This document shows, piece after piece, positions 14,987-26,115 of a stretch of DNA of 64,000 nucleotides. Origin of the DNA: a virus. The stretch covers positions 248,001-312,000 of IMG/VR virus record IMGVR_UViG_3300032675_000001. The stretch is one strand, 5' to 3'. The position numbers were made by a program, and so were the translations under genes. Below the pieces are notes generated by a model that saw nothing but the letters and a program-made list of their open reading frames with translations, was not told where the DNA came from and did not search any database. Numbering within the stretch: position 1 is the first letter of the stretch; each line of letters starts with the position of its first letter.

Positions 14987-15133
14987 ATGCGTACTTGGTG
15001 GGTTCTGATTCGCAATGACGGTGGCGCTGGCATCCGGGTTACCGTACAGGGCGACAATGCATATAATGCATTTCAGATTGCAAAGCGGCTCTATGGATCG
15101 TCTTTGATTTCTCAACACGCAAATCTCTGCTGA
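14987..15133 (+). CDS. Small protein, unknown
   Basis: 48 residues (MRTWWVLIRNDGG onward, ending SQHANLC). Perfect AAGGAGA Shine-Dalgarno six bases before ATG. Closely spaced after the previous gene and directly before a terminator. Not recognised. Confidence 0.65.
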   Translation: MRTWWVLIRNDGGAGIRVTVQGDNAYNAFQIAKRLYGSSLISQHANLC

Positions 15134-15140
15134 ATGTGAA

Positions 15141-15168
15141 AAAGGGCTTGACAAACAAGCCCTTTTTT
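15141..15168 (+). terminator. Terminator whose stem contains the next promoter's -35
   Basis: Stem AAAGGGCTTG/CAAGCCCTTT, loop ACAAA, then T run. TTGACA of the next promoter is formed by the 3' end of the left arm and the loop. Confidence 0.85.
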
Positions 15169-15176
15169 GCTATATT
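15148..15176 (+). promoter_or_regulatory. Sigma-70-type promoter overlapping a terminator
   Basis: TTGACA (15148-15153), 17-nt spacer formed by the terminator, TATATT (15171-15176). Termination and re-initiation are packed into 36 bases. Confidence 0.8.
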
Positions 15177-15223
15177 AAGAATGTGCAATACCGCACGTAA
15201 CTAACCACTAACTAGAGAATTTA

Positions 15224-15565
15224 ATGACTAATCAAACTTTTAGTGTTGTAGGTATTACCGATTACAAAGATGGATTCAAGGTTCGCTTCACGAATGATAT
15301 GTGCAGGCGAATCAAACGTTGTTCTAAAAATGGCGCAAACCGCTTAGACTTCGTTGATCTTCCTCATGCCATGACCAAGGTTGAAGCATTGAAGTATATG
15401 CTCACCCTTCCACAGTTTCAATCTCCTGAGGATCAGGTCACGATTGAAGATGCTCTCGCAAGCCGAGATAAGGACGCTCGCATTTCTAAGGAAAAACCGC
15501 GCCGAGGTCGTCCACCATTCCCCAAAACCACTTTAAAAGATATTATGGAGGCCATCAATGGCTAA
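15224..15565 (+). CDS. Small protein with AT-hook-like motif
   Basis: 113 residues. A folded N-terminal part (TFSVVGITDYKDGFKVRF) and a C-terminal KPRRGRPPFPK, which matches the minor-groove-binding AT-hook core (RGRP). Overlaps the next gene by 8 bases. DNA binding is inferred from the hook only. Confidence 0.65.
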   Translation: MTNQTFSVVGITDYKDGFKVRFTNDMCRRIKRCSKNGANRLDFVDLPHAMTKVEALKYMLTLPQFQSPEDQVTIEDALASRDKDARISKEKPRRGRPPFPKTTLKDIMEAING

Positions 15566-15764
15566 GAAACCAATCCTCAAAATTTCCGATAAACTCACTA
15601 AGGTCAACGATAACCTTACCGTCTACTTTTATGACAATGCGTATTTAGTAGAAATCGGTGGCCGGGACGCCACTGATGAATGGGGTACGGTTAAGCTGGT
15701 GTGTAAAACCCTAGAAGATGTTTTGGTTCTGCTTAAAGAAGTAGACGAACTTCCTCGTGATTGA
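15558..15764 (+). CDS. Small protein, unknown
   Basis: 68 residues (MAKKPILKISDKLTKV onward). Predicted mixed alpha/beta with YFYDNAYLVEIGG. Coupled to the AT-hook gene. Its stop touches the terminator shared with the convergent protease gene. Confidence 0.65.
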   Translation: MAKKPILKISDKLTKVNDNLTVYFYDNAYLVEIGGRDATDEWGTVKLVCKTLEDVLVLLKEVDELPRD

Positions 15765-15790
15765 GTAAAGGCCCCATATGGGGCCTTTAC
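15765..15790. terminator. Bidirectional terminator between convergent genes
   Basis: Perfect 11-bp stem GTAAAGGCCCC/GGGGCCTTTAC with ATAT loop, A/T-rich on both flanks, between the plus-strand unit ending at 15764 and the minus-strand late unit ending at 15787. Confidence 0.85.
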
Positions 15791-16635
15791 GTTGGGTCAT
15801 TCACAGATTTAATTGCCCAAAAATCGCTGGACATTGAGGTGTTCTGAATTACTTCATAGGGCATATAAAAGTATCCATCAGCGCCCCAATTAGCACCCCA
15901 AGAGTTTCTAGCAATAAATCTCTGGGTGGAATTATTGTATCCCACTAAAAGGACGCAATGCCCACCCAGCAGTTGTTCGGTTTTGACATTCGGATATGGC
16001 ATCATTCCGGTTTGTGCGACCACTTCGCTTTCAAAACTGCTATAAACATCAAAGCCGATGATGACAGGATATCCTAAAGCGATTGCACCTATGCAAGTAT
16101 CAAAGTCTGGCACTGATTCGTATAGTGTAACTTTTCTACGTATAGCATCTGCTACAGCAACTGAGGGCGGAGCAACTGTAAATTTAGAAATATTGTATGG
16201 CCAAAGCGTTTCTAGTGGTGCACCATTTGTGTACGTAACTTTGATACCGTCACGAATATATGCGCCACTGTCTTGTCTAACTGTACCCTCAAAAACTCTC
16301 TCATAATAGTAAATAAAGAGTCTGCTGACTTGGGTTGCTTTGCTGTTGTAGCGTCTATCCATATATTCGATGCATCCTGCGATTGCGTTGCCGGTGCAAG
16401 AACCTAGATTACCCTGATCATCAATGGGGGAACACCACTGCCTCAAGTCAACTGAGTTAGGAGTAGAGGAAGGAGCCGGTGCAGAAAAAATCAAATCTCT
16501 GGAATCTACTGGTTCTCTAGCCCAATGATATTTTGGAAGAGATGGCCTGCGTGGTTGCGGTGAAGCTATCTCTGGTGACACGTGCTGCAATCCTGGATCT
16601 TGGGTTGTATCTATCAAGGGTGGTTTAATAATCAT
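15787..16635 (-). CDS. Papain-like (C1A) cysteine peptidase
   Basis: 282 residues. The catalytic triad is visible: QGNLGSCTGNA (Cys80), GGHCVLLVGY (His226) and RNSWGANWG (Asn244), with the C1A oxyanion Gln at 74. There is no signal peptide; the first 60 residues are Pro-rich and may be a propeptide. It is the last gene of the fibre operon, 3 bases after a tail-fibre-like gene. Inference: a virion protease that matures fibres or acts on the cell surface during adsorption. Its stop lies inside the shared terminator. Confidence 0.85.
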   Translation of the reverse strand: MIIKPPLIDTTQDPGLQHVSPEIASPQPRRPSLPKYHWAREPVDSRDLIFSAPAPSSTPNSVDLRQWCSPIDDQGNLGSCTGNAIAGCIEYMDRRYNSKATQVSRLFIYYYERVFEGTVRQDSGAYIRDGIKVTYTNGAPLETLWPYNISKFTVAPPSVAVADAIRRKVTLYESVPDFDTCIGAIALGYPVIIGFDVYSSFESEVVAQTGMMPYPNVKTEQLLGGHCVLLVGYNNSTQRFIARNSWGANWGADGYFYMPYEVIQNTSMSSDFWAIKSVNDPT

Positions 16636-16638
16636 CGG

Positions 16639-17928
16639 TTAACCTATGCGCCAGTTTGATCCATCGCTGTATACTGGAACAATGTTTGATCCACCTGCGC
16701 CAACTGTTGCTCCGAAATTTCCAGCAGCAACTAAGTTAGCATTATTAACAAATGCTCTCTGTCCCGCAGTAGTGGCAGATGGTAAATTTGCAACTGCGAC
16801 CGGTATAGTGATTGATATTGATGAAGATATTACCTTTGCACCAATTATATTACCGCCAGTTAGAGTGACATTGCCACCTGAACCGTTTGTGCTAAAGTTG
16901 TTAGCTTTTACTAGATTGCCGCCATCAACGTTGCCAGCAACCAAATTACCAGTAACATTTGCGGTGTCAGCAGTGATATTGTTTGTCACTGAGATGTTAT
17001 TAGCGTTGGAAATGTTACCTTGAACAACAAGATCATTAGCAAAGTTTGCATAATTAGCAGTTACTAAGTTACCAAGATTTGCAGTACCTACAGACGGGAA
17101 TGTTGTGTTACCAGTACTGTCAAGATTCCATTCATACTCACTACCTTCATAATCAGTATAGAAGTAGATGTTGTTTGTATCAATGTCAATATAACTATTG
17201 CCAGAAGCGTCCGTTAGATTTAGACTACCGGTTACTGGTTTAATATAACTACTTCCAGGTACTGTTAAATTACCATTATCTTCGAATATCCAGTTATATG
17301 CACCTTCTTGACTGTACAACAAAACATTACTATTAGTGCCATTGTCATTTAATTGGATACCTGAATAGACACCAGAATTGGTATAGATGTTAATTGCTGT
17401 GTTTGGTTGGCCAGTTATGCCAGAACCATTTGGCAATGTTAATTGACCGTTATTATCAAACGTCCATTGTTGATCTGACCCATTATTTGCATTGATGTAT
17501 ACGTTGCCATCAGTAGTGGGAATGCTTACATTTGAATTACCATCATAGATGATATTCTGTGAAGCGGTTGAAACCCAGCTTAGGTTACCTGAACCATCTG
17601 TTTGAAGAAAATATCCGTTATAACCACCTGGAATGTTCAATGTGCTTACATCTACAATACGAAGACCAGTTAGATTACCTACTGAAGTTATATTGGGCTG
17701 TGCAGCATTAGCCACAGAAAGAGAAATCAGAGCCACGTTAGCTGGACTAAAATTAGCACCACCTGCACCACTAAGAATCAAATTACCTACAATTTGTAGG
17801 TTTGCTTTATCTGTAATCGGGTTGGCAATATTGGTGGTATCCACGATAGGAATCAATGACGTGGGTGATATATTTGCACCAATGTCATTTAACTGTGTAA
17901 TTTTTATTCCCGTCAAATTTCCGCTCAT
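16639..17928 (-). CDS. Tail-fibre-like structural protein
   Basis: 429 residues of Gly/Asn/Thr-rich beta repeats, for example ITSVGNLTGLRIV, QQWTFDNNGQLTLPNGSG and NLTVPGSS (repeated W-F-DNNG-LT-P units every 50-60 residues). It ends in TAGQRAFVNNANL and VPVYSDGSNWRIG, a C-terminal module common to phage fibre and collar proteins. RBS AGGAATAACAC. It lies between another fibre protein and a protease in a late operon. Receptor binding is inferred. Confidence 0.85.
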   Translation of the reverse strand: MSGNLTGIKITQLNDIGANISPTSLIPIVDTTNIANPITDKANLQIVGNLILSGAGGANFSPANVALISLSVANAAQPNITSVGNLTGLRIVDVSTLNIPGGYNGYFLQTDGSGNLSWVSTASQNIIYDGNSNVSIPTTDGNVYINANNGSDQQWTFDNNGQLTLPNGSGITGQPNTAINIYTNSGVYSGIQLNDNGTNSNVLLYSQEGAYNWIFEDNGNLTVPGSSYIKPVTGSLNLTDASGNSYIDIDTNNIYFYTDYEGSEYEWNLDSTGNTTFPSVGTANLGNLVTANYANFANDLVVQGNISNANNISVTNNITADTANVTGNLVAGNVDGGNLVKANNFSTNGSGGNVTLTGGNIIGAKVISSSISITIPVAVANLPSATTAGQRAFVNNANLVAAGNFGATVGAGGSNIVPVYSDGSNWRIG

Positions 17929-17944
17929 GTGTTATTCCTATGTT

Positions 17945-19054
17945 TTATGAGAATGTTGCGCCATTATTACCAATACAATACCAGCTACTGTTTATGAATT
18001 GTAGTTGACATCCATAACCATTGCCGTTGAATGAGATGTTTCCATTGCTTCCACCTTTCCATCCTGCATTTGCTACCGATATGACCATTGCGTTGCCCGT
18101 GGTTGATGTCATGATGAAGTTTTTAAGTTGACCTGTTGATCCCGCAGCCAGCGTGGCAGTAGCTGCTGTTGTGGTGCTAAAATAGCTTGCTGCAACAGAT
18201 AGGTTTGCTGCTGCACCATTTGCAAGATTTTCAACACCAGCCAAATACATGAGATTAGCGGTAAGGCTTCCAGAAAACGTTGCGTTAGCTGGCAAATTGA
18301 TACCTATTGATCCTGCAGAAACAACAGGGGTATTAGTTATTACTAACTGAGAACTTGTTACGCCAACAGAGGTAACTGTTCCACCAGATGATGGTGCAGA
18401 AATGGTGACATTTCCATTGCTTCCGGATAACTGAATTCCAGCACCAGCAGTAAGTTGAGTAACACCAGTGTTTGTTACAGTAATATTACCAGAAGTGGTG
18501 ATTGGACCACCATTGATTTGAATTCCAGCACCGGGATTTAATCCAACGCTGGTGACTGTTCCCAATGACGTTCCGTTAGAAGCAGAAGTGACTCTACCAT
18601 ATTGGTCAACCGTCAAGCTTGGGTTCGTATAAGTTCCGGCAGTAACGCCACTTGATGCCAAGTCAATGTTAATATTACCTGATGATACGATTGGGGAACC
18701 GGTTACGGACAATCTTGATGTTGGAATCAATCCAACACTAGTGACTGTTCCGCCGCCACCATTTCCTCCACCGGTTGCGGAAATGGTAACAACTCCGGTG
18801 GATTCGCTAATGACAATATTGGTACCAGCAATAATCTCAGTAACACCAGTATTATTAATGGTAACCACCCCGGTTGTTGAGTTTGTAGTAACTGCGATAC
18901 CATTACCAGAGTTAAATGTGTTGAATGGACTTGAGCAAGCAAAAAGTTGCGTAAAGTTTTGTTGAGTCTTTGTGAACGCTGTATATAACGAGTCACTTCC
19001 TGTAGACTCATTAGGCAAGCCAATGTTGATGTTTTGTTGTCCGGTGATACTCAT
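17945..19054 (-). CDS. Tail-fibre-like structural protein with GTVTSVG repeats
   Basis: 369 residues. Four GTVTSVG(L/V) repeats alternate with TGVT..I.AG..I blocks, followed by a smooth beta C-terminus ending in CIGNNGATFS. Gly/Ser/Thr/Asn-rich low-complexity composition is typical of trimeric fibres. First gene of the operon, with GATAAATA at 19073-19080 and AAGGATTCACA RBS. Confidence 0.85.
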   Translation of the reverse strand: MSITGQQNINIGLPNESTGSDSLYTAFTKTQQNFTQLFACSSPFNTFNSGNGIAVTTNSTTGVVTINNTGVTEIIAGTNIVISESTGVVTISATGGGNGGGGTVTSVGLIPTSRLSVTGSPIVSSGNINIDLASSGVTAGTYTNPSLTVDQYGRVTSASNGTSLGTVTSVGLNPGAGIQINGGPITTSGNITVTNTGVTQLTAGAGIQLSGSNGNVTISAPSSGGTVTSVGVTSSQLVITNTPVVSAGSIGINLPANATFSGSLTANLMYLAGVENLANGAAANLSVAASYFSTTTAATATLAAGSTGQLKNFIMTSTTGNAMVISVANAGWKGGSNGNISFNGNGYGCQLQFINSSWYCIGNNGATFS

Positions 19055-19072
19055 TGTGAATCCTTATGATGT

Positions 19073-19080
19073 ATTTATCA
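19073..19080 (-). promoter_or_regulatory. Late promoter GATAAATA of the fibre operon
   Basis: Lies 18 bases upstream of the fibre start codon (19054), leaving room for a normal leader and RBS. Confidence 0.75.
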
Positions 19081-19087
19081 ATAAGGA

Positions 19088-20374
19088 TTAGGATTTATTG
19101 AGTGCTTCCCACTTTTTAGCCATGGCATCAACAAACTCAGAAATACTAGTCAACTTGTTTTGCTTCATATAGTTGATGATTTTGGCTGCATTTTTTCTAT
19201 CAGGACCAGAATCTGGTTTTCTAGCGTTGCTTAGCTCGTTGGCTAATCCTTTCGCTGTTTCTTTTTGATAGTAGTTGTTATCGAGATTGCGAATAATGCC
19301 TTTTGCATTTGAACTTAGTTGGGAACTATCTGTTGCCTGCAACACCTCAAGCCAAGGAATAAGCCAACCACGGTGCCTTCTGAACGATCTACCAACTTTT
19401 CTTTGGCCAGCCAAAGTATTGATTTGAGATGTCTTGGTGGTATCAAGATTTCTCCAAGCAGACTCATCTGTGTAGTAGTAAACAGGTATGTCACGTTTCT
19501 TAGCTTCTAAAAGTACTATTCTTGCAAGTCCCTTAACATTTGGGTCTGCGTCTTCTCTGACAAACACATGAACAGCAGTAACGCCATTAATAGGAATAGA
19601 TGGTTCTTTACTGAATAATCTGTCCTCTGCCTCATGAGTTCTGTGATGAGATTTTGCTGGATCGCGGTTCTGCCAGTAATCTACAGGTTTTGACGGATAT
19701 TTGCTATTATAATAGTTACCATCCAGTACGAACATAATAGCAGATTGTCCAATGGTGGCATGATAACCTCCTCTTGGAGTCCTTGTCGTGCTTAGAAAGT
19801 AGTGGTATCCTTTTGGTGCATATTGATGTTCAATACTACCCAATGAACTGCTGAGTTCAAACTTTCCGGTTGCAAGAATCTTAGAAGCTGCCCATGCTGT
19901 AGTATAATGGTATACGATTCTACTCAATGATTCATCAAGTTGTTGATCTTCATTGGTCGGTTCCCACTTCATATTCTTGGAACTGCCGATATGCTGGAAT
20001 CCATGCCTTTTGTAGAACTTGATTAGTTTAGCTTGTGATACTGCACCTTTATCCCATGGGAACAAAGTAAGTGTGATACCATCCTGTTGTGCTAAATCCT
20101 GCAATATCTTCATTGCCTTTGAGCCAGCACCACTACGCAATGGAGTTGCTTGAATCCATTTTAGTTCTACTTTATTTCCCTGTTTAGGTGTAAGTTCAAA
20201 CTGAACAATCTGCATGTCATCACCTTTACCAAAAGTCATTAGACGATTGCTACGGCTCAATGGGCTTTCTGGGAATTTTGCATTGACCTTAGCAACCCAT
20301 TCTTTAGTCTTCTCAGATGGTCCGAAGCCACTAAGTTTGATTGGTTCTTCGGTTATAAACTCTGCTGCTCTCAT
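19088..20374 (-). CDS. GNAT acetyltransferase-like plus ART-like fusion protein
   Basis: 428 residues. Start MRAAEFITEEP looks like a capsid-targeting peptide. Residues about 50-135 resemble a GNAT domain: TPLRSGAGSKAMKIL gives the acetyl-CoA loop (R80-x-G-x-G) and LIKFYKRHGF the usual C-terminal motif. Residues about 152-290 resemble an ADP-ribosyltransferase-like fold: YHYTTAWAAS, FLSTTR and HEAEDRLF (ExE at 248-250). The rest is helical. It ends an operon with SOD and a deaminase-kinase fusion (ATGA overlap). An injected modifier of host proteins, like T4 Alt, is inferred. Confidence 0.65.
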   Translation of the reverse strand: MRAAEFITEEPIKLSGFGPSEKTKEWVAKVNAKFPESPLSRSNRLMTFGKGDDMQIVQFELTPKQGNKVELKWIQATPLRSGAGSKAMKILQDLAQQDGITLTLFPWDKGAVSQAKLIKFYKRHGFQHIGSSKNMKWEPTNEDQQLDESLSRIVYHYTTAWAASKILATGKFELSSSLGSIEHQYAPKGYHYFLSTTRTPRGGYHATIGQSAIMFVLDGNYYNSKYPSKPVDYWQNRDPAKSHHRTHEAEDRLFSKEPSIPINGVTAVHVFVREDADPNVKGLARIVLLEAKKRDIPVYYYTDESAWRNLDTTKTSQINTLAGQRKVGRSFRRHRGWLIPWLEVLQATDSSQLSSNAKGIIRNLDNNYYQKETAKGLANELSNARKPDSGPDRKNAAKIINYMKQNKLTSISEFVDAMAKKWEALNKS

Positions 20375-21543
20375 CCCCAGCCTCTCTTTACTTTTTGTTG
20401 ATATAGTGGCATTACTTCTTCAGTAAACCCTACATCAAGAATGACTGGTCTACCTTCATATTCGCCCCAATTGGCTGCTTGATTTAAATCTCCAATAAGG
20501 ATGGATGAGCTATTTATAAGATCACCCGCTTCATGAACATAATCCATAAAAATATCAAGGTCTTGTTCTGTTTTGCCTGCTTCTTTGAGGTCTTGTAAAA
20601 TCTCTCCCAGTTCACGAGAGCGCCAGCGATCTCGTCTATTCAAGAGGGCTTGAACTGCTTCAGTAAAGTCCCAAACATGTGTGCAGTGTAGCAAAGTTGC
20701 TAGTTTTGCAGAACTTACTTTCTTTGCAAGTTCAGTTTGAAGCCATGTTGGTTGCGGATTCTTTCTGTCATAATCAATAAGCGGGATGACGATTGGCAGT
20801 CTACCAAGATATCCATCATCAAGGATTTGGACTTCTGCCTCATTCTGCGCCATACCCTTTGCATTTTTGGCAACTTTAAGAGCAGTAGGACGCCCCTCAT
20901 ATTCAATGATCATTGCTACTCTTGCCGATCCTCCACCCAGTCTTTTAGCACGTTGTAAAGCATATGCGAGACGGCTTTTGAACGACTTGGTTGAACTGAG
21001 TTCATTTTCATCCCAACCAGTTGGTAGAGGCATCTCATCAAGTTCTTGTGTTTCTTTGATGAAGTCATCCTTCTTTTCAAGGAAGATGTTAGAAATCTTT
21101 TTGCAGAGTTCTCTTACGCTTTTATTGCCGGATTCCAATTGAGTAAACTTGCGTTGATCATTGGTTTGTGTTGGATCAATATACCCACAGTATACCTTTT
21201 TGACAGGGCTGTTATTGATTAAATCGGTGCAACTCTTACTGTATCTGTTACCCATTACATCATTGCATGGGCTTAGTGTAGTAACAATGATACTTCCTTT
21301 AGGAACTTCGCCATACTTGGATTCATACTTACCTAATGCTTCTCGTTCAGCATGAATCCATTTGTCTCCTGACTTGGTGCTTATGCCAGTTACAATGTTG
21401 TTCTTGGGATCAAGGACGGCTGCACCAACAAGCCCGTCTAGCTTGGGGTTGCCGTGGTGCTCGTCAATAACCATCTCACATAACTTGAGAAGGATTTTGT
21501 CCAGTTTTTTATAATTGTGGATTTCAAAGTCGGATGCTCTCAC
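20371..21543 (-). CDS. Deaminase-like plus protein-kinase-like fusion protein
   Basis: 390 residues. Residues 1-125 follow the zinc cytidine/dCMP deaminase pattern: HAE at 64-66 and SPC (92-93) with a second Cys at 105. Residues about 200-380 follow a protein-kinase fold: GGGSARVAMII (P-loop), ALKVAK (K223), NEAE, GDLNQAANWG (D352 and N357 at HRDxxxxN spacing) and LDVGF (D370-V-G, DFG-like). It overlaps SOD upstream and the GNAT/ART gene downstream. Such a fusion is unusual. Modification of host targets is inferred; neither activity is proven. Confidence 0.7.
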   Translation of the reverse strand: MRASDFEIHNYKKLDKILLKLCEMVIDEHHGNPKLDGLVGAAVLDPKNNIVTGISTKSGDKWIHAEREALGKYESKYGEVPKGSIIVTTLSPCNDVMGNRYSKSCTDLINNSPVKKVYCGYIDPTQTNDQRKFTQLESGNKSVRELCKKISNIFLEKKDDFIKETQELDEMPLPTGWDENELSSTKSFKSRLAYALQRAKRLGGGSARVAMIIEYEGRPTALKVAKNAKGMAQNEAEVQILDDGYLGRLPIVIPLIDYDRKNPQPTWLQTELAKKVSSAKLATLLHCTHVWDFTEAVQALLNRRDRWRSRELGEILQDLKEAGKTEQDLDIFMDYVHEAGDLINSSSILIGDLNQAANWGEYEGRPVILDVGFTEEVMPLYQQKVKRGWG

Positions 21544-22094
21544 AGTGATTTACCCCAACGAGTATTGATCACATTCCAGTTGATAATCTTCCAAAGATTA
21601 CGAAGATACGATTTTTTATCAGCACCATAATCTAGCAAAAACGCATGTTCCCACCAGTCAACAAGAAGCAGTATGTCATCTCTGACTTCATGGTTTTTGA
21701 TTGTTTTGATGCTGCCGTCATAGGCAAGATAAATCCAGCCCGATCCTTCAATCTTCAACGCTTCCTCAAGAAAAGCACCTTTGAACTTATCATAATCACC
21801 AAAGTGTTTGTTGATGAATGGAAGCATCGGGCCGTTAGGTTTATTGTTCGTTCTTACTTCCCTAAACTGAGGGAACCACATGTTATGTAAGAACGCACCA
21901 GCATAGTTGAAGTCAGAGTCACCTTCATTATCGTTGTAGCGTTGAGCATATCCCTTAGCCAACTTGTTATAATGAAGGTCAAGGGTGTCCTTCCCCATAA
22001 CTGGAGAAACTTCACGCTCCGTGAAGTTTAACGGTATGATTTCTATGTCTTGAGGCTTAGATTTGGCTTCAAGTAAGGTAATATATTCACGCAT
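21540..22094 (-). CDS. Fe/Mn superoxide dismutase family protein
   Basis: 184 residues from ATG 22094, with start MREYITLLEAKSK, which fits a capsid-targeting peptide with an LxE/A cut site. Then the SOD fold: DLHYNKLAKGYAQ (His), FLHNMWFPQF (His), FKGAFLEEALKIEGSGWIYL, and LLVDWWEHAFLLDYG (Asp and His), so all four metal ligands are present. Fe/Mn SODs convert superoxide to peroxide and oxygen. It is first in a three-gene late operon. Virion packaging is inferred from the N-terminus. Confidence 0.85.
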   Translation of the reverse strand: MREYITLLEAKSKPQDIEIIPLNFTEREVSPVMGKDTLDLHYNKLAKGYAQRYNDNEGDSDFNYAGAFLHNMWFPQFREVRTNNKPNGPMLPFINKHFGDYDKFKGAFLEEALKIEGSGWIYLAYDGSIKTIKNHEVRDDILLLVDWWEHAFLLDYGADKKSYLRNLWKIINWNVINTRWGKSL

Positions 22095-22098
22095 CTTG

Positions 22099-22106
22099 TA
22101 TTTATT
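22099..22106 (-). promoter_or_regulatory. Late promoter AATAAATA abutting the SOD start
   Basis: Only CAAG separates ATAAATA from the ATG at 22094. No Shine-Dalgarno. It drives SOD, the deaminase-kinase and GNAT/ART genes. Confidence 0.65.
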
Positions 22107-22130
22107 CAAGCGCGAAGAAATGTATTGGGA

Positions 22131-22346
22131 TTATTTACGCCTTACGATTCTACCTCTGGTCACATCATATGGGCTGATATCTACATCAACCATATCTCCC
22201 ATGAGGATACGTATTTCATATTGTCGCATCTTGCCAGCAACATAAGCGAGTATTACTACGCCATTTTCCAGTTTTACTCTGAAGTTTGCATTGGGTAATA
22301 CATCCACGATTTCCCCTTCTAGACGCATTGTACTTTCTTTAGCCAT
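22131..22346 (-). CDS. infA: Translation initiation factor IF-1
   Basis: 71 residues, one less than E. coli IF-1, and collinear over the full length: [20 protein letters not shown], then HVSGKMR-like [17 protein letters not shown] and [14 protein letters not shown]. This is a complete OB fold that occupies the ribosomal A site during initiation. It sits in a late structural gene block after a fibre-associated gene. With the phage initiator-type tRNA at 6579 it suggests control of translation start. The Shine-Dalgarno is weak, so coupling is likely. Confidence 0.92.
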
Positions 22347-22354
22347 AAATCATA

Positions 22355-22891
22355 TTACTTCTTTAAAATATCCCACATTGACTCCTTCTCTAGGATTTCT
22401 TTTTCAAGCTGACGATATTGATCGCCAAGAGCCTTAAGTTCTTCCCACTTGCCTTCTAAATCATTGTTTGGGCGTAGGATACCCAAACGCTGTTCAATCT
22501 GATCCAGCCTATCAGATAGGTTCACACCTTTAACTGTAAGATTACCCTCAATTATTGTATCACCGTTAACCTGTAATGTGTGTCCAGATGTAATAGTATT
22601 TGGATACATGTATCCATTAGTTGAGATGTACGGAGATGCAGTAGTGGTGATGGTATTGTTATAACCCCAGTTGGATGATCCTAAAGAACCCATTGTTGGA
22701 AAATACTGACCAGTTAATCCGCCGCCACCGCCGAGTGATGAAGACAGGCTTCCAGTAATATTTGAACTTGTACTATAATTAAACGATCCACTTGATCCTA
22801 AAGTATAGGTATAACCTCCACCGGAGTCAACTTCCGTCACCATTTGGTCATCAGTTAGATCATAAACTTCATTAGTAGTATCGTCGGTCAT
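22355..22891 (-). CDS. Gly/Ser-rich structural protein with coiled-coil end
   Basis: 178 residues. The N-terminal 120 residues are Gly, Ser, Thr and Tyr-rich, ending in TSGHTLQVNGDTIIEGNLTV, a beta-helix-like fibre unit. The C-terminal 60 residues are helical: LDQIEQRLGILRPNNDLE and WEELKALGDQYRQLEKEI. I recognise this tail from T4-like and marine myophage virion proteins. It overlaps the AbrB-like gene by ATGA. Precise location in the virion unknown. Confidence 0.75.
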   Translation of the reverse strand: MTDDTTNEVYDLTDDQMVTEVDSGGGYTYTLGSSGSFNYSTSSNITGSLSSSLGGGGGLTGQYFPTMGSLGSSNWGYNNTITTTASPYISTNGYMYPNTITSGHTLQVNGDTIIEGNLTVKGVNLSDRLDQIEQRLGILRPNNDLEGKWEELKALGDQYRQLEKEILEKESMWDILKK

Positions 22892-23073
22892 TTATTAGCC
22901 TTTTTTAAGAATAGTTCACCGCGCTCATCAACGCCAATCTCAACGTCATCGCCTTCTTTCCATCCCAAATATTTTAGGAGTGGAATAGGAACAGGTATGA
23001 TCATATCACCATCAGGAGATTCCTGAGTGATAACCTCATACCTCGTCTTACTTCTTTTGGATTTTGCAGCCAT
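22888..23073 (-). CDS. AbrB/MazE-like DNA-binding protein
   Basis: 61 residues. Basic N-terminus, then PDGDMIIPVPIPLLKYLGWK and EGDDVEIGVDERGELFLKK, the swapped-hairpin SpoVT/AbrB pattern seen in MazE antitoxins and AbrB regulators. No toxin gene was found next to it, so a transcription regulator role is more likely than an antitoxin. Confidence 0.75.
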   Translation of the reverse strand: MAAKSKRSKTRYEVITQESPDGDMIIPVPIPLLKYLGWKEGDDVEIGVDERGELFLKKANK

Positions 23074-23089
23074 TTAATTTGTTGTCATA

Positions 23090-23266
23090 TTATGAAATAC
23101 GACCCAAACGATGCAAAAGGTTTGCAGCTTTGGAAATATCCGGGTGTTCTGAATCTATAGCTTTAACATATGCGTGTAAAGCTGCCTTAATGAGAGGGAT
23201 ATCAGCAGGGGAAAATGTTCCGCCTTTAGCTTCTCGTGGACTAGATGATGTAGTTTTTTCGCTCAT
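23090..23266 (-). CDS. Small late protein, unknown
   Basis: 58 residues (MSEKTTSSSPREAKGG onward, then LIKAALHAYVKAIDSEH and ISKAANLLHRLGRIS). Helical, hydrophilic. ATAAATA lies exactly five bases before the ATG, so the late transcript should start at the A of AUG. Not recognised. Confidence 0.65.
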   Translation of the reverse strand: MSEKTTSSSPREAKGGTFSPADIPLIKAALHAYVKAIDSEHPDISKAANLLHRLGRIS

Positions 23267-23271
23267 GATAA

Positions 23272-23279
23272 TATTTATT
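23272..23279 (-). promoter_or_regulatory. Late promoter AATAAATA, leaderless geometry
   Basis: Five bases (TTATC) separate ATAAATA from ATG 23266, which puts the expected start site at the initiation codon. Confidence 0.65.
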
Positions 23280-23303
23280 CTCTAAAATGCAACCGTTGAG
23301 TTT

Positions 23304-24497
23304 TTACCAAGCTCTGCATGACCAGTAACGTGCCTTCCATTTAGGTCCTGGATTTTCACAGTGGTGTCTGGCTCTAAATGATTTGCGATGGGCGGGGCTG
23401 TTCTTCTTGATACGCATGTTCTTGTCACCAAAGTTTACCTTCACGACTTTACCGTTTGGCTTTTTCACATAAACTTTGGACTTCTTGACATCGCCCTGCA
23501 TTGGTTTATTAAGAGCAACTTTATGACCTTGGTATTCAGCTTCATCCATTTCAACACTTTCGTATTGAGGATCAACTGGTTTCCCATATTGATCGCGGAT
23601 TTCGTCACCAGTGACATTTAAATGATCTAGTGTCTGCTGGATTCTAGAATCAAGTTCCTGAACCTTAGCATCGTCACCCTTTTGTTGTGCTACTTCACGG
23701 AAGTGAGCCAGCTTAGCAAGCTGCGGATCACTCTTCATCAACTGTGCAGCTTCATATTTATTGATACCAGCAATAGCAGCGATCAATGCAGCACCACCGA
23801 ATGCCCAAGTCTTCCAGCCTTCTTCAAGTTCTTCTTCCTCAACAGGATTACCTGAAAGTCTCTTGATTTCGTTTAGTTCTTCGTCATCGTCGGTCATGTG
23901 ATCGTAATGACCTTCTTCAAGAGCACGGATAACTTCATTCACCCAAATACTAACATCAGAACTTCCGATTTCATCCAAATCATGAAGGTGAGAAGCAACA
24001 TCTTCAATGGCTGACATAATCTTAACTGGACCGTATTTACTTACGAGTTCAGGTTTTGTGCGAAGGATTCTCCAACGAATGGCGCTTTCTGCTGCGTTGC
24101 TACTACCATCCTCGCTTTCACCCATTACACGAGTTCCGCCTTCGGCAGCATCACTACCGCCACCCATTTTCATGTATTCATCAATCTTTTCAAACTTTTT
24201 CTTTTGCATAGATGGATTGATTTTACCTGAAATCTTCTTTGCGCGATTGGATAGCTTTTCGTTTACCTTAATTTCGTCTTCTGATTCATTGAGAATGCCA
24301 TGGAAACCAAGAAACTCAAGAGCATCTTCATCAAGGTGAACAATAACTCCACCATCTTCTGTAAAGCCAACAACACCGGTTTCGATAACAAAGTTCTCAT
24401 TCAACTCAATATCAAAACTATCATGTAGTCTGATTTCATCACTCTCATGGTTTTCTTCCATGCCGCGAATAAGTTTGTACAAGTCTCTGGTATCCAT
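23304..24497 (-). CDS. Virion/scaffold-type protein with conserved C-terminal module
   Basis: 397 residues, very acidic (EEELEEGW, DDDEELNE), with one short hydrophobic stretch (AFGGAALIAAIAG, about 232-244). The C-terminal 75 residues (YQGHKVALNKPMQGDV, VNFGDKNMRIKKNSP and NPGPKWKARYWSCRAW) are a module I recognise from head or scaffold-related proteins of T4-like and marine myophages. Several LxE/ILxE sites could be cut by a prohead protease. RBS GGAGATTATA and a late promoter at 24522. Confidence 0.75.
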   Translation of the reverse strand: MDTRDLYKLIRGMEENHESDEIRLHDSFDIELNENFVIETGVVGFTEDGGVIVHLDEDALEFLGFHGILNESEDEIKVNEKLSNRAKKISGKINPSMQKKKFEKIDEYMKMGGGSDAAEGGTRVMGESEDGSSNAAESAIRWRILRTKPELVSKYGPVKIMSAIEDVASHLHDLDEIGSSDVSIWVNEVIRALEEGHYDHMTDDDEELNEIKRLSGNPVEEEELEEGWKTWAFGGAALIAAIAGINKYEAAQLMKSDPQLAKLAHFREVAQQKGDDAKVQELDSRIQQTLDHLNVTGDEIRDQYGKPVDPQYESVEMDEAEYQGHKVALNKPMQGDVKKSKVYVKKPNGKVVKVNFGDKNMRIKKNSPAHRKSFRARHHCENPGPKWKARYWSCRAW

Positions 24498-24520
24498 TAT
24501 AATCTCCGAAAGTATATCTA

Positions 24521-25066
24521 TTATTTATCTTTACCAAAGACATTTTGTAGTGCTACCACCACCTTATCCAGCGTATCTTCATCAGCTTGGTATTTGCAGG
24601 CTACTCCGCCATGTTCATCCCATGCGCGAGTATTAACTCCATAATCATCAATAAGGACATTAGGAGTTCCGTCTGGTTGAACAGCATACTTATACTTTTC
24701 ACGCTCAAAGATCACATCATCTGGTTTAACGGTGATGTATTTTTTCAGCCATTCACGCTTTCCCTTGATACAACCTTCTTGGTCATATCGCATAGGACTA
24801 CTAAGAATAGTATATCCACCGGCATATTTCTTGACAATATCAAGAAGCTGATTTGCAGTTGAGAATGGTCTAATGTCGCGAAATAGATGATATGCATCCG
24901 AGTCCTTGAAGAACTTTTCCCACTGTTCATCTGTCATGTCATTGTAATGTTCCACATCGTGAAACTCTGCTGCATCAGCATATAGATTAGCAAGAACGCC
25001 ATCCATGTCCACATATACGATAGGCTTTTTTGGTTTGGCTTCTTCAAAGAGGTCAAGTATTTTCAT
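24521..25066 (-). CDS. HAD-family phosphatase (5'-nucleotidase-like)
   Basis: 181 residues from ATG 25066; upstream codons in frame are ignored because MKILDLFEEAKPK looks like a capsid-targeting peptide (FEE/A). HAD motifs: YVDMDGVLANLY (nucleophile Asp and acid/base Asp), TILSSP, EKYKYAV and VLIDDYGVN. Close to 5'(3')-deoxyribonucleotidases. It would dephosphorylate nucleotides, perhaps after injection. It lies beside the acidic virion protein. Confidence 0.8.
   Translation of the reverse strand: MKILDLFEEAKPKKPIVYVDMDGVLANLYADAAEFHDVEHYNDMTDEQWEKFFKDSDAYHLFRDIRPFSTANQLLDIVKKYAGGYTILSSPMRYDQEGCIKGKREWLKKYITVKPDDVIFEREKYKYAVQPDGTPNVLIDDYGVNTRAWDEHGGVACKYQADEDTLDKVVVALQNVFGKDK
24522..24529 (-). 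promoter_or_regulatory. Late promoter GATAAATA
   Basis: Overlaps the stop of the HAD gene and precedes the acidic virion protein gene by 24 bases with a normal RBS. Confidence 0.7.
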
Positions 25067-25112
25067 ATGTTCTATATTTAACACATTCTGAGCGAAAAAG
25101 CAAGCAAAAAAC

Positions 25113-25120
25113 AATAAATA
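25113..25120 (+). promoter_or_regulatory. Late promoter AATAAATA
   Basis: Divergent from the HAD gene, 30 bases before ATG 25151, which has an AAGGA RBS. Confidence 0.6.
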
Positions 25121-25150
25121 GTGACTGATGACAACAATAAGGAAAACAAT

Positions 25151-25669
25151 ATGTCAGAAGCACCAAAACCATTATCACGTTCAGAAAAAGAAGCAAAGAT
25201 CAAGGATAAAGCTGGATTAGTTATCAACTTCTTCGCATTATTGTTAGCCGTCAACACCTTCATTGGTGGGTCACTGAGTTCAACTATAATGAACAACACT
25301 ATTAAAGCTAATGATGTTTGGAACTTCTATCAGGCAAAAAGCATCAAGCAAGAAGAATATGAGTTGGCATCAGAACAGACTAAAAATCCTGTATTGGCTA
25401 AGCAATGGAAAGAAAAAGCCGATAGTTACGAGGAAGGACCTGAAGGCAAGAAGGCACTATATGCAACTGCAAAGAAACTGGAAGCAGATAGAGATGCTGC
25501 AAAGAAAAGCAGCCCGTGGATCAGTTATGCCAGCACTGCATTTCAGTTGAGCATTGTCGTGCTATCAGCAAGCATCCTTGCAGTAAGCATGTATCTGTTC
25601 TGGGGAAGCTTTGTTGTAGCCGCAATCGGTCTTGTATTGATGAGTCAAGGTCTTTGGATGTGGTTCTAA
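25151..25669 (+). CDS. DUF4337-like membrane protein
   Basis: 172 residues from ATG 25151 (AAGGA at 7 bases); an in-frame GTG at 25121 is not needed. Three membrane segments: about 27-45, 117-140 and 145-165. The text ANDVWNFYQAKSIKQ between the first and second is the DUF4337 signature. Unknown function. Convergent with the small early gene at 25670. Confidence 0.75.
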   Translation: MSEAPKPLSRSEKEAKIKDKAGLVINFFALLLAVNTFIGGSLSSTIMNNTIKANDVWNFYQAKSIKQEEYELASEQTKNPVLAKQWKEKADSYEEGPEGKKALYATAKKLEADRDAAKKSSPWISYASTAFQLSIVVLSASILAVSMYLFWGSFVVAAIGLVLMSQGLWMWF

Positions 25670-25915
25670 TCACTTCCGCTTAGGAATATAATCCCTGTTC
25701 ATAACTGGAGAGCGATCAGGAACGATGTGGCTAAAGTCAACCATATCTTCCCCGTATTTCAACGTGAACAGGGATTGCTCCACTTCATTTTTATGGTCAA
25801 ATCCTATAATAAGGTGGTTCAGAAACCGAATCTTATAACGAATCTTATGTGTTTTGACATCATGCAGAATGTCATCAAAGTTGTTAGATTCTCTGTTGAA
25901 TATCAAAAACTTCAT
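25670..25915 (-). CDS. Small protein, unknown
   Basis: 81 residues from ATG 25915 (TAATGA overlap with the upstream gene). MKFLIFNRESNNFDDIL onward; basic with a Tyr/Phe-rich middle. First of the small early genes in this direction to end. Not recognised. Confidence 0.6.
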   Translation of the reverse strand: MKFLIFNRESNNFDDILHDVKTHKIRYKIRFLNHLIIGFDHKNEVEQSLFTLKYGEDMVDFSHIVPDRSPVMNRDYIPKRK

Positions 25916-26115
25916 TACTTTTTCCAAATCAAAAACGCTACGTAATCTCTTTCAGATTCAAAGAAGAACTCAAATCCATTATACTGGTCATTAACGTTCT
26001 CCATGAACCGCCATTCACTCGTACAGTTTCGTTCACACCACTCTACTATGGGTTGTAGCTGACCATATTGTACAGTGACGTTTGCTCTATGTGCGTTCGG
26101 TATACTGATGGACAT
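25915..26115 (-). CDS. C-terminal-signature small protein
   Basis: 66 residues from ATG 26115. Ends in FFESERDYVAFLIWKK, a member of the family of tiny proteins with a C-terminal (F/V)xxExD(A/Y)xxFxL(K/R)W motif. It overlaps the dCMP deaminase gene by 29 bases in another frame. Confidence 0.6.
   Translation of the reverse strand: MSISIPNAHRANVTVQYGQLQPIVEWCERNCTSEWRFMENVNDQYNGFEFFFESERDYVAFLIWKK

Follow-up and report, generated by a model that had tools for sequence, protein, structure and literature searches.

A superoxide dismutase operon of a T4-like giant phage with predicted capsid-targeting leaders and prohead-protease sites between fused effector domains

What brings a superoxide dismutase (SOD) gene of a bacteriophage together with genes for two fused enzymes of quite different kinds, and at which stage of infection would the three products act? 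The question is raised by positions 19088 to 22106 of a 64,000-nucleotide (nt) window, which is the whole stretch analyzed and corresponds to positions 248001-312000 of the 360,683-bp IMG/VR virus record IMGVR_UViG_3300032675_000001. As stated in the initial annotation, three genes are joined there into an operon by 4-base overlaps; all are on the minus strand. They encode an Fe/Mn SOD of 184 amino acids (aa) (21540..22094), a 390-aa fusion of a deaminase and a kinase-like domain that starts with GTG and overlaps the SOD stop by GTGA (20371..21543), and a 428-aa fusion of a GNAT acetyltransferase-like and an ADP-ribosyltransferase (ART) domain, which is linked to the preceding gene by an ATGA overlap (19088..20374). 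The operon probably encodes head cargo, the products of which would be packaged by means of leaders, split at the fusion junctions by the prohead protease, and injected together with the DNA.

The assignment of the first product as SOD is based on its Pfam match (Sod_Fe_C, E=1.9e-23) and on matches to SODs of the PDB (from 8e-22), and the full set of metal ligands claimed for it is indeed present (H41, H70, D146, and H150; His-His-Asp-His). The alignment to cellular and PDB SODs begins at query residue 17 only, and before it lies a leader of the capsid-targeting type (22068..22094, minus strand); the N-terminus reads MREYITLLE, then AKSKP, with a putative cut after the E. All 80 relatives that were fetched have this leader. 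An upstream TTG (22109) was rejected as the start codon, the ATG of MREYITLLE being conserved in the relatives, and from the sequence the start appears better placed at the ATG at 22094. The GNAT-ART fusion likewise begins with a leader, MRAAEFITE, followed by E (20348..20374, minus strand). By their sequences, both leaders are of the T4 capsid-targeting type and terminate in [LI]xE, the motif of gp21. Cleavage by gp21 in T4 follows L/I-x-E, and such a leader of 10 aa suffices to bring foreign proteins into T4 heads (PMC9026906).

A prohead protease of the gp21 type (Peptidase_S77 match, 1.8e-28) and a gp23 capsid protein (match 2.6e-98) are both encoded in the genome, which therefore belongs to a T4-like giant phage. 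In its capsid protein, [LI]xE occurs at residues 5, 17, 32, and 41 only, with none in the remaining approximately 355 residues, while the scaffold contains 21 such motifs in 368 aa, the genome average being 0.96% per position. Such a distribution would be expected if, as in T4, the propeptide is removed and the scaffold destroyed. Leaders similar to those of the operon are found on about ten other proteins of the phage, among them a cell-wall hydrolase (MRAKEFITES), an amidoligase-like protein (MRAKHFLDLYEA), a GNAT protein (MRAFEFLFED), a Kinase-PolyVal-like protein encoded next to gp23 (MRISELLTES), and several unknown proteins. A 5'(3')-deoxyribonucleotidase (24521..25066, minus strand; NT5C, 2.9e-9) with the leader MKILDLFEE, followed by A, is a probable further cargo. 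Compared with shuffled N-termini, the pattern M[KR]x3-9[LIF]xE was seen at 14 N-termini versus 4.7 expected, and the leader MRAx[EDH]F in five genes versus 0.006 expected. Of 110 starts of the MRAxEF type, 63 share 4 nt with an upstream open reading frame, versus 1/110 in the control frame. The genes for the hydrolase and the amidoligase-like protein, the latter comprising 744 aa, form a leader-tagged pair (G000:C1:328817-332499), and a late promoter is located 5 nt ahead of the start of the amidoligase-like gene. Two leader-tagged genes are located just after gp23 (G000:C1:179310-180245), of which gene 179673 weakly matches Kinase-PolyVal (0.0015).

The motif that ends the leaders is also found inside the two fusion proteins. 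At the deaminase-kinase junction, LDE is followed by M (21034..21042, minus strand), in the register of the leader site of stand-alone kinases, and at the GNAT-ART junction it is followed by S (19931..19939, minus strand), in the corresponding ART register; both are predicted prohead-protease sites. Relatives were collected from 59 loci for the kinase and from 64 loci for the ART domain. The ART scan was derived from alignment A3, the variability of A1 and A5 being too high to yield degenerate patterns, and its patterns are internal to the domain and, thus, unbiased for the junction motif. In the stand-alone proteins, the leader is followed directly by the domain, as in the kinases MKISELLSE/APLPDDWD and MKSTEFITE/APLPDDWD and in the ARTs MRATEFLIE/RISSRVFHYT and MKASEFIVE/SLSKTVFHYT. 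In the fused copies, GNAT, nucleotidyltransferase, deaminase, or unknown domains are found in front, often with an N-terminal leader of their own, and the junctions fall into the stand-alone register (QELDE/MPLP and QQLDE/SLSR in this phage; LQE/RVSS, LNE/GLSP, and LGE/APLP elsewhere). At the ART register, [LI]xE is present in 38/38 distinct registrable sequences and [LIV]xE in all ten fusions; at the kinase register, the motif is present in 42 of 43 sequences, with [LIV]xE in 19/19 fusions, the background of [LIV]xE being 1-2% per position. The structure models are disordered just ahead of or at the predicted sites: the deaminase-kinase junction corresponds to the low-confidence segment 1-7 of the kinase model, and the model of the GNAT-ART fusion is disordered at residues 141-146, while the P1 residue of its junction, E148, is >90% conserved. 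The new point is the occurrence of [LIV]xE at fusion junctions after unrelated upstream domains, which the initial annotation had missed; with junctions of this cleavage type, the two products would have to be viewed as polyproteins rather than as fused enzymes.

It might be argued that the leaders serve packaging and injection, as proposed, and that the junction motifs are remnants of ancestral leaders, the fusions working uncut as two-domain proteins. Fusions do arise beside stand-alone leader-tagged genes, and head proteins of giant phages can function with an uncut propeptide, as is the case for the vRNAP beta subunit of SPN3US (PMC5694885). However, the 24 distinct fusion linkers have kept [LIV]xE only, with variable P2 and P1' positions and without a leader of the MRAxEF type. 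Since a neutral remnant would be expected to erode over its entire length, this selective retention counts against the remnant explanation, as does the disorder at the GNAT-ART junction, and we regard it as unlikely.

As to the nature of the supposed cargo, the zinc deaminase-like domain named in the initial annotation is confirmed as of the RibD/dCMP-deaminase type (21073..21522, minus strand; PF00383, E=3.2e-11; PDB RibD, 3.2e-5), with the zinc-site residues H64, E66, and C93 and the C105 region present. In the kinase-like domain (20374..21033, minus strand), the predicted residues K223, D352, and D370-V-G are found, while the asparagine is N358 and not N357; a P-loop GGGS and E237 are present in addition. 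Within the kinase segment, K61, E75, D190, D208, and G210 are invariant and N196 is >90% conserved (42 sequences). An AlphaFold model of this segment, calculated from the alignment of 42 relatives, reached a predicted local distance difference test (pLDDT) value of 91.9 and a predicted template-modelling score of 0.86; its best Foldseek matches are protein kinases, with a probability of 1.00 and template-modelling (TM) scores of 0.3-0.4; such low values are not surprising for a compact variant that differs in many places. Taken together, the P-loop, the Lys, Glu, catalytic Asp, and Asn residues, D-x-G, and the predicted fold are features of the protein-kinase superfamily. PF18762 (Kinase-PolyVal) was not among the families listed for the 42 kinase members, and relatives of the kinase were not found in GTDB genome contigs. 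A sequence search of the PDB gave nothing useful for either kinase or ART, the matches being provided by the folds; the kinase-, GNAT-, and ART-like domains fall below what sequence profiles detect.

The union of GNAT-like and ART-like domains is likewise borne out by predicted structure (pLDDT 78.5), and, with the kinase, the structure check proposed earlier supported all three folds (AlphaFold and Foldseek). The GNAT-like domain (19952..20347, minus strand) has an RSGAGS loop at residues 80-85, a weak Pfam GNAT match, and AcrVA5, RimI, and other GNATs as Foldseek matches. The second domain, with a helical C-terminal part (19091..19930, minus strand), has DarT as its best fold match (2.4e-4, probability 1.00, TM 0.47 by target length); S195, R198, E248, and E250 are >90% conserved in 38 relatives, and the histidine of YHYT is conserved as well. 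An assignment to the Alt family was set aside, DarT and not Alt-like proteins being the structural neighbors listed, and by fold match the domain resembles DarT more than T4 Alt, with which it was compared initially. The suggestions that host proteins are the targets and that the SOD protects against an oxidative burst are not supported; DarT, the nearest fold of the ART, is a DNA ADP-ribosyltransferase, which modifies thymidine and has DarG as its antidote. A DarG partner was not seen here, although no search was aimed at one. Judged from the model, the ART may act on DNA, but its sequence is too distant from DarT for the DNA specificity to be transferred.

For the steps from entry into the head to injection, which are inferred from T4, the following scenario is proposed. 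The SOD and the two fusion proteins would be made late in infection and carried into the prohead core by N-terminal leaders of the T4 internal-protein type. The gp21-type protease would then cut after [LI]xE. Its action would remove the leaders and, as the deaminase/kinase and GNAT/ART junctions contain this motif too, would also split the fusions into separate enzymes. Injected with the DNA, the enzymes would act before any phage gene expression; the SOD would keep superoxide low at once upon entry, and the ART-, kinase-, and GNAT-like enzymes would modify host targets.

Elements of this scenario are known from other systems. With IPI-III and Alt of T4, the phage has in common the short basic leader ending in L/I-x-E, the gp21-type protease, the gp23-type capsid, and cargo of the ART type, and propeptide removal is described in the head-maturation papers searched on T4, phiKZ, and SPN3US, including cleavage of Alt at both ends, at ITE-6 and LTE-619 (PMC5694885). 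The differences are that the cargo here comprises SOD, deaminase, kinase, GNAT, and DarT-like ART, and that several cargo domains are contained in one polypeptide, with predicted cut-sites in between; the word "polyprotein" is absent from the two SPN3US papers searched. The polyvalent proteins described by Iyer, Burroughs, and Aravind in 2017 (PMC5512222) are also multidomain, with mixes of ART, kinase, GNAT, and nucleotidyltransferase, and are predicted to be injected, and their trait of several conflict-type enzymatic domains in one phage polypeptide is present here. In that work, self-processing by built-in metallopeptidases is proposed and T4-type ARTs are set apart, whereas leaders and [LI]xE junctions here point to the prohead protease. 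In delivery, the present system would resemble T4 internal proteins and Alt, and in domain content it resembles polyvalent proteins. A packaged viral SOD has a precedent in A245R of PBCV-1, which is made late and found in the virion (PMC7019647), albeit in a eukaryotic algal virus and as an unrelated Cu/Zn enzyme, in contrast to the Fe/Mn family here; for a phage-encoded SOD of this kind, no paper was found in a literature search of incomplete coverage. SodB of the phages PA5oct, MIJ3, Callisto, and Paride is about 40% identical to the SOD. The PA5oct protein begins with MNDSIKKYISIAE, followed by A, an IxE-ending leader (...YISIAE/A), and carries an electrospray ionization tandem mass spectrometry (ESI-MS/MS) annotation; most proteins so marked are structural. 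In PA5oct and Callisto, in difference to the present locus, SodB is located between ClpS and small unknown genes and not before leader-tagged fusion cargo. From the leaders, the gp21-type protease, the sharing and swapping of leaders, and the PA5oct annotation, the injected effector module suggested at the outset receives strong, though indirect, support.

Several observations weigh against the packaging and cleavage of these proteins, for which the support in this phage is, as said, indirect. Leaderless PA5oct proteins, namely RNR, thymidylate synthase, FtsH, and ClpP, are also annotated ESI-MS/MS, and because of these enzymes the annotation supports but does not prove packaging of the SOD. 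The N-terminus of the deaminase, MRASDFE, is targeting-like but without a proper [LI]xE site. One kinase scan pattern held the P1 Glu, though not P3; the MALP and TPLP kinase forms, which it could not match, have the Glu too. Family members are related, and the junction counts are therefore not independent. ARTs of Lu11, HRDY3, and Dickeya phages are without the motif, and the SOD of Vibrio phage 2.275.O is without leader and motif. The ART-like proteins of Pseudomonas phage Lu11 (L128) share a leader of their own, MKIQLAVA(G/T), without LxE, which perhaps reflects a protease of different specificity.

The leaderless Vibrio SOD would also agree with the view that these are ordinary late or auxiliary metabolic genes, unpackaged, with the SOD directed against oxidative stress and the rest serving late host takeover, and with the likeness of the N-termini due to translation start context or common descent. 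The late-type promoter and the occurrence of SOD and metabolic enzymes in other large phages are in line with it, as are the Fe-S carrier genes found behind SOD in several relatives; these carriers are of the IscA/ErpA type and overlap the SOD gene by 4 nt (L036, with a PF01521 match of 5e-20, L039, L042, and others), a position which suggests a superoxide/Fe-S theme. What makes this view quite improbable is that the leader is common to unrelated folds and ends in the motif of capsid propeptide and scaffold. Mere start context was rejected as the cause of the leader likeness, the motif recurring in register at internal fusion junctions.

If the domains are head cargo, leaders and [LI]xE junctions would make them exchangeable cassettes, with a preferred slot behind the SOD. 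A leader-tagged gene is the next gene after SOD in 23 of 56 distinct loci, mostly with a 4-nt overlap. Within one phage, unrelated proteins carry a common leader, and the leader of a given domain differs between phages (Slicko01, XacN1); eight genes in a row in Alishewanella phage Slicko01 have related leaders, most of them MKIxxLY..(L/I)xE, and several of these genes encode ARTs and one the kinase. Among the loci collected, another domain replaces the kinase after deaminase and LDEM in L006, the deaminase, as an internal module, precedes an ART in L200 and follows a nucleotidyltransferase-like domain in L013, and a second GNAT is inserted ahead of the junction in the GNAT-ART protein of L114; longer multidomain relatives are found in L148, L200, and L213. 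Still larger proteins of 1434, 1814, and 1220 aa (L183, L185, and L189, respectively) carry the kinase domain terminally, together with additional domains, and in L060 (8549-9826) a Zeta-toxin/AAA-type kinase domain is the leader-tagged cargo behind SOD.

The evidence tips slightly toward the broader proposition that T4-like giant phages build [LI]xE-jointed effector polyproteins, which would be packaged by one leader, separated by the protease, and injected, with cassettes captured behind a packaged SOD. If true, the capsid maturation protease would double as polyprotein processor, an antioxidant enzyme would be among the first molecules entering the cell, and leader plus junction motif would provide a simple sequence rule by which metagenomes could be mined for phage effectors that are injected. 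Among the testable candidates for enzymes of takeover or anti-defence would be the kinase and DarT-like ART families, neither of which has a Pfam model above cut-off.

Concerning expression, a late-promoter-like AATAAATA (22099..22106, minus strand) ends with its last base 4 nt ahead of the SOD ATG, and a similar motif recurs in most of the 80 fetched SOD relatives; the promoter motif announced at 22099 is thus present, and its serving all three genes as the single promoter is plausible. An mRNA starting from AATAAATA would be nearly leaderless, with the SOD start codon 4 nt away. In the phage genome, TAAATA ends 3-5 nt ahead of the start codon in 21 genes, which would make leaderless late mRNAs; in a second group of genes, the distance is 17-24 nt, and a Shine-Dalgarno-like stretch often lies in between. 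Directly upstream of SOD, a gene for translation initiation factor IF-1 is located (22131..22346, minus strand; PF01176, 1e-21), an arrangement also seen in many fetched SOD loci, and the factor could be relevant to leaderless mRNAs. A simple scan for sigma-70 promoters and terminators gave results not clearly above shuffles, no Rfam families were found in window positions 15000-26000, and the PADLOC matches were weak and non-specific only. Searching annotated-phage DNA with a 6.5-kb query yielded one weak match only, while IMG/VR contains at least 599 relatives of the SOD. Elsewhere in the window, a gene for a papain-like (C1) peptidase (15787-16635) adjoins repetitive tail-fibre-like genes.

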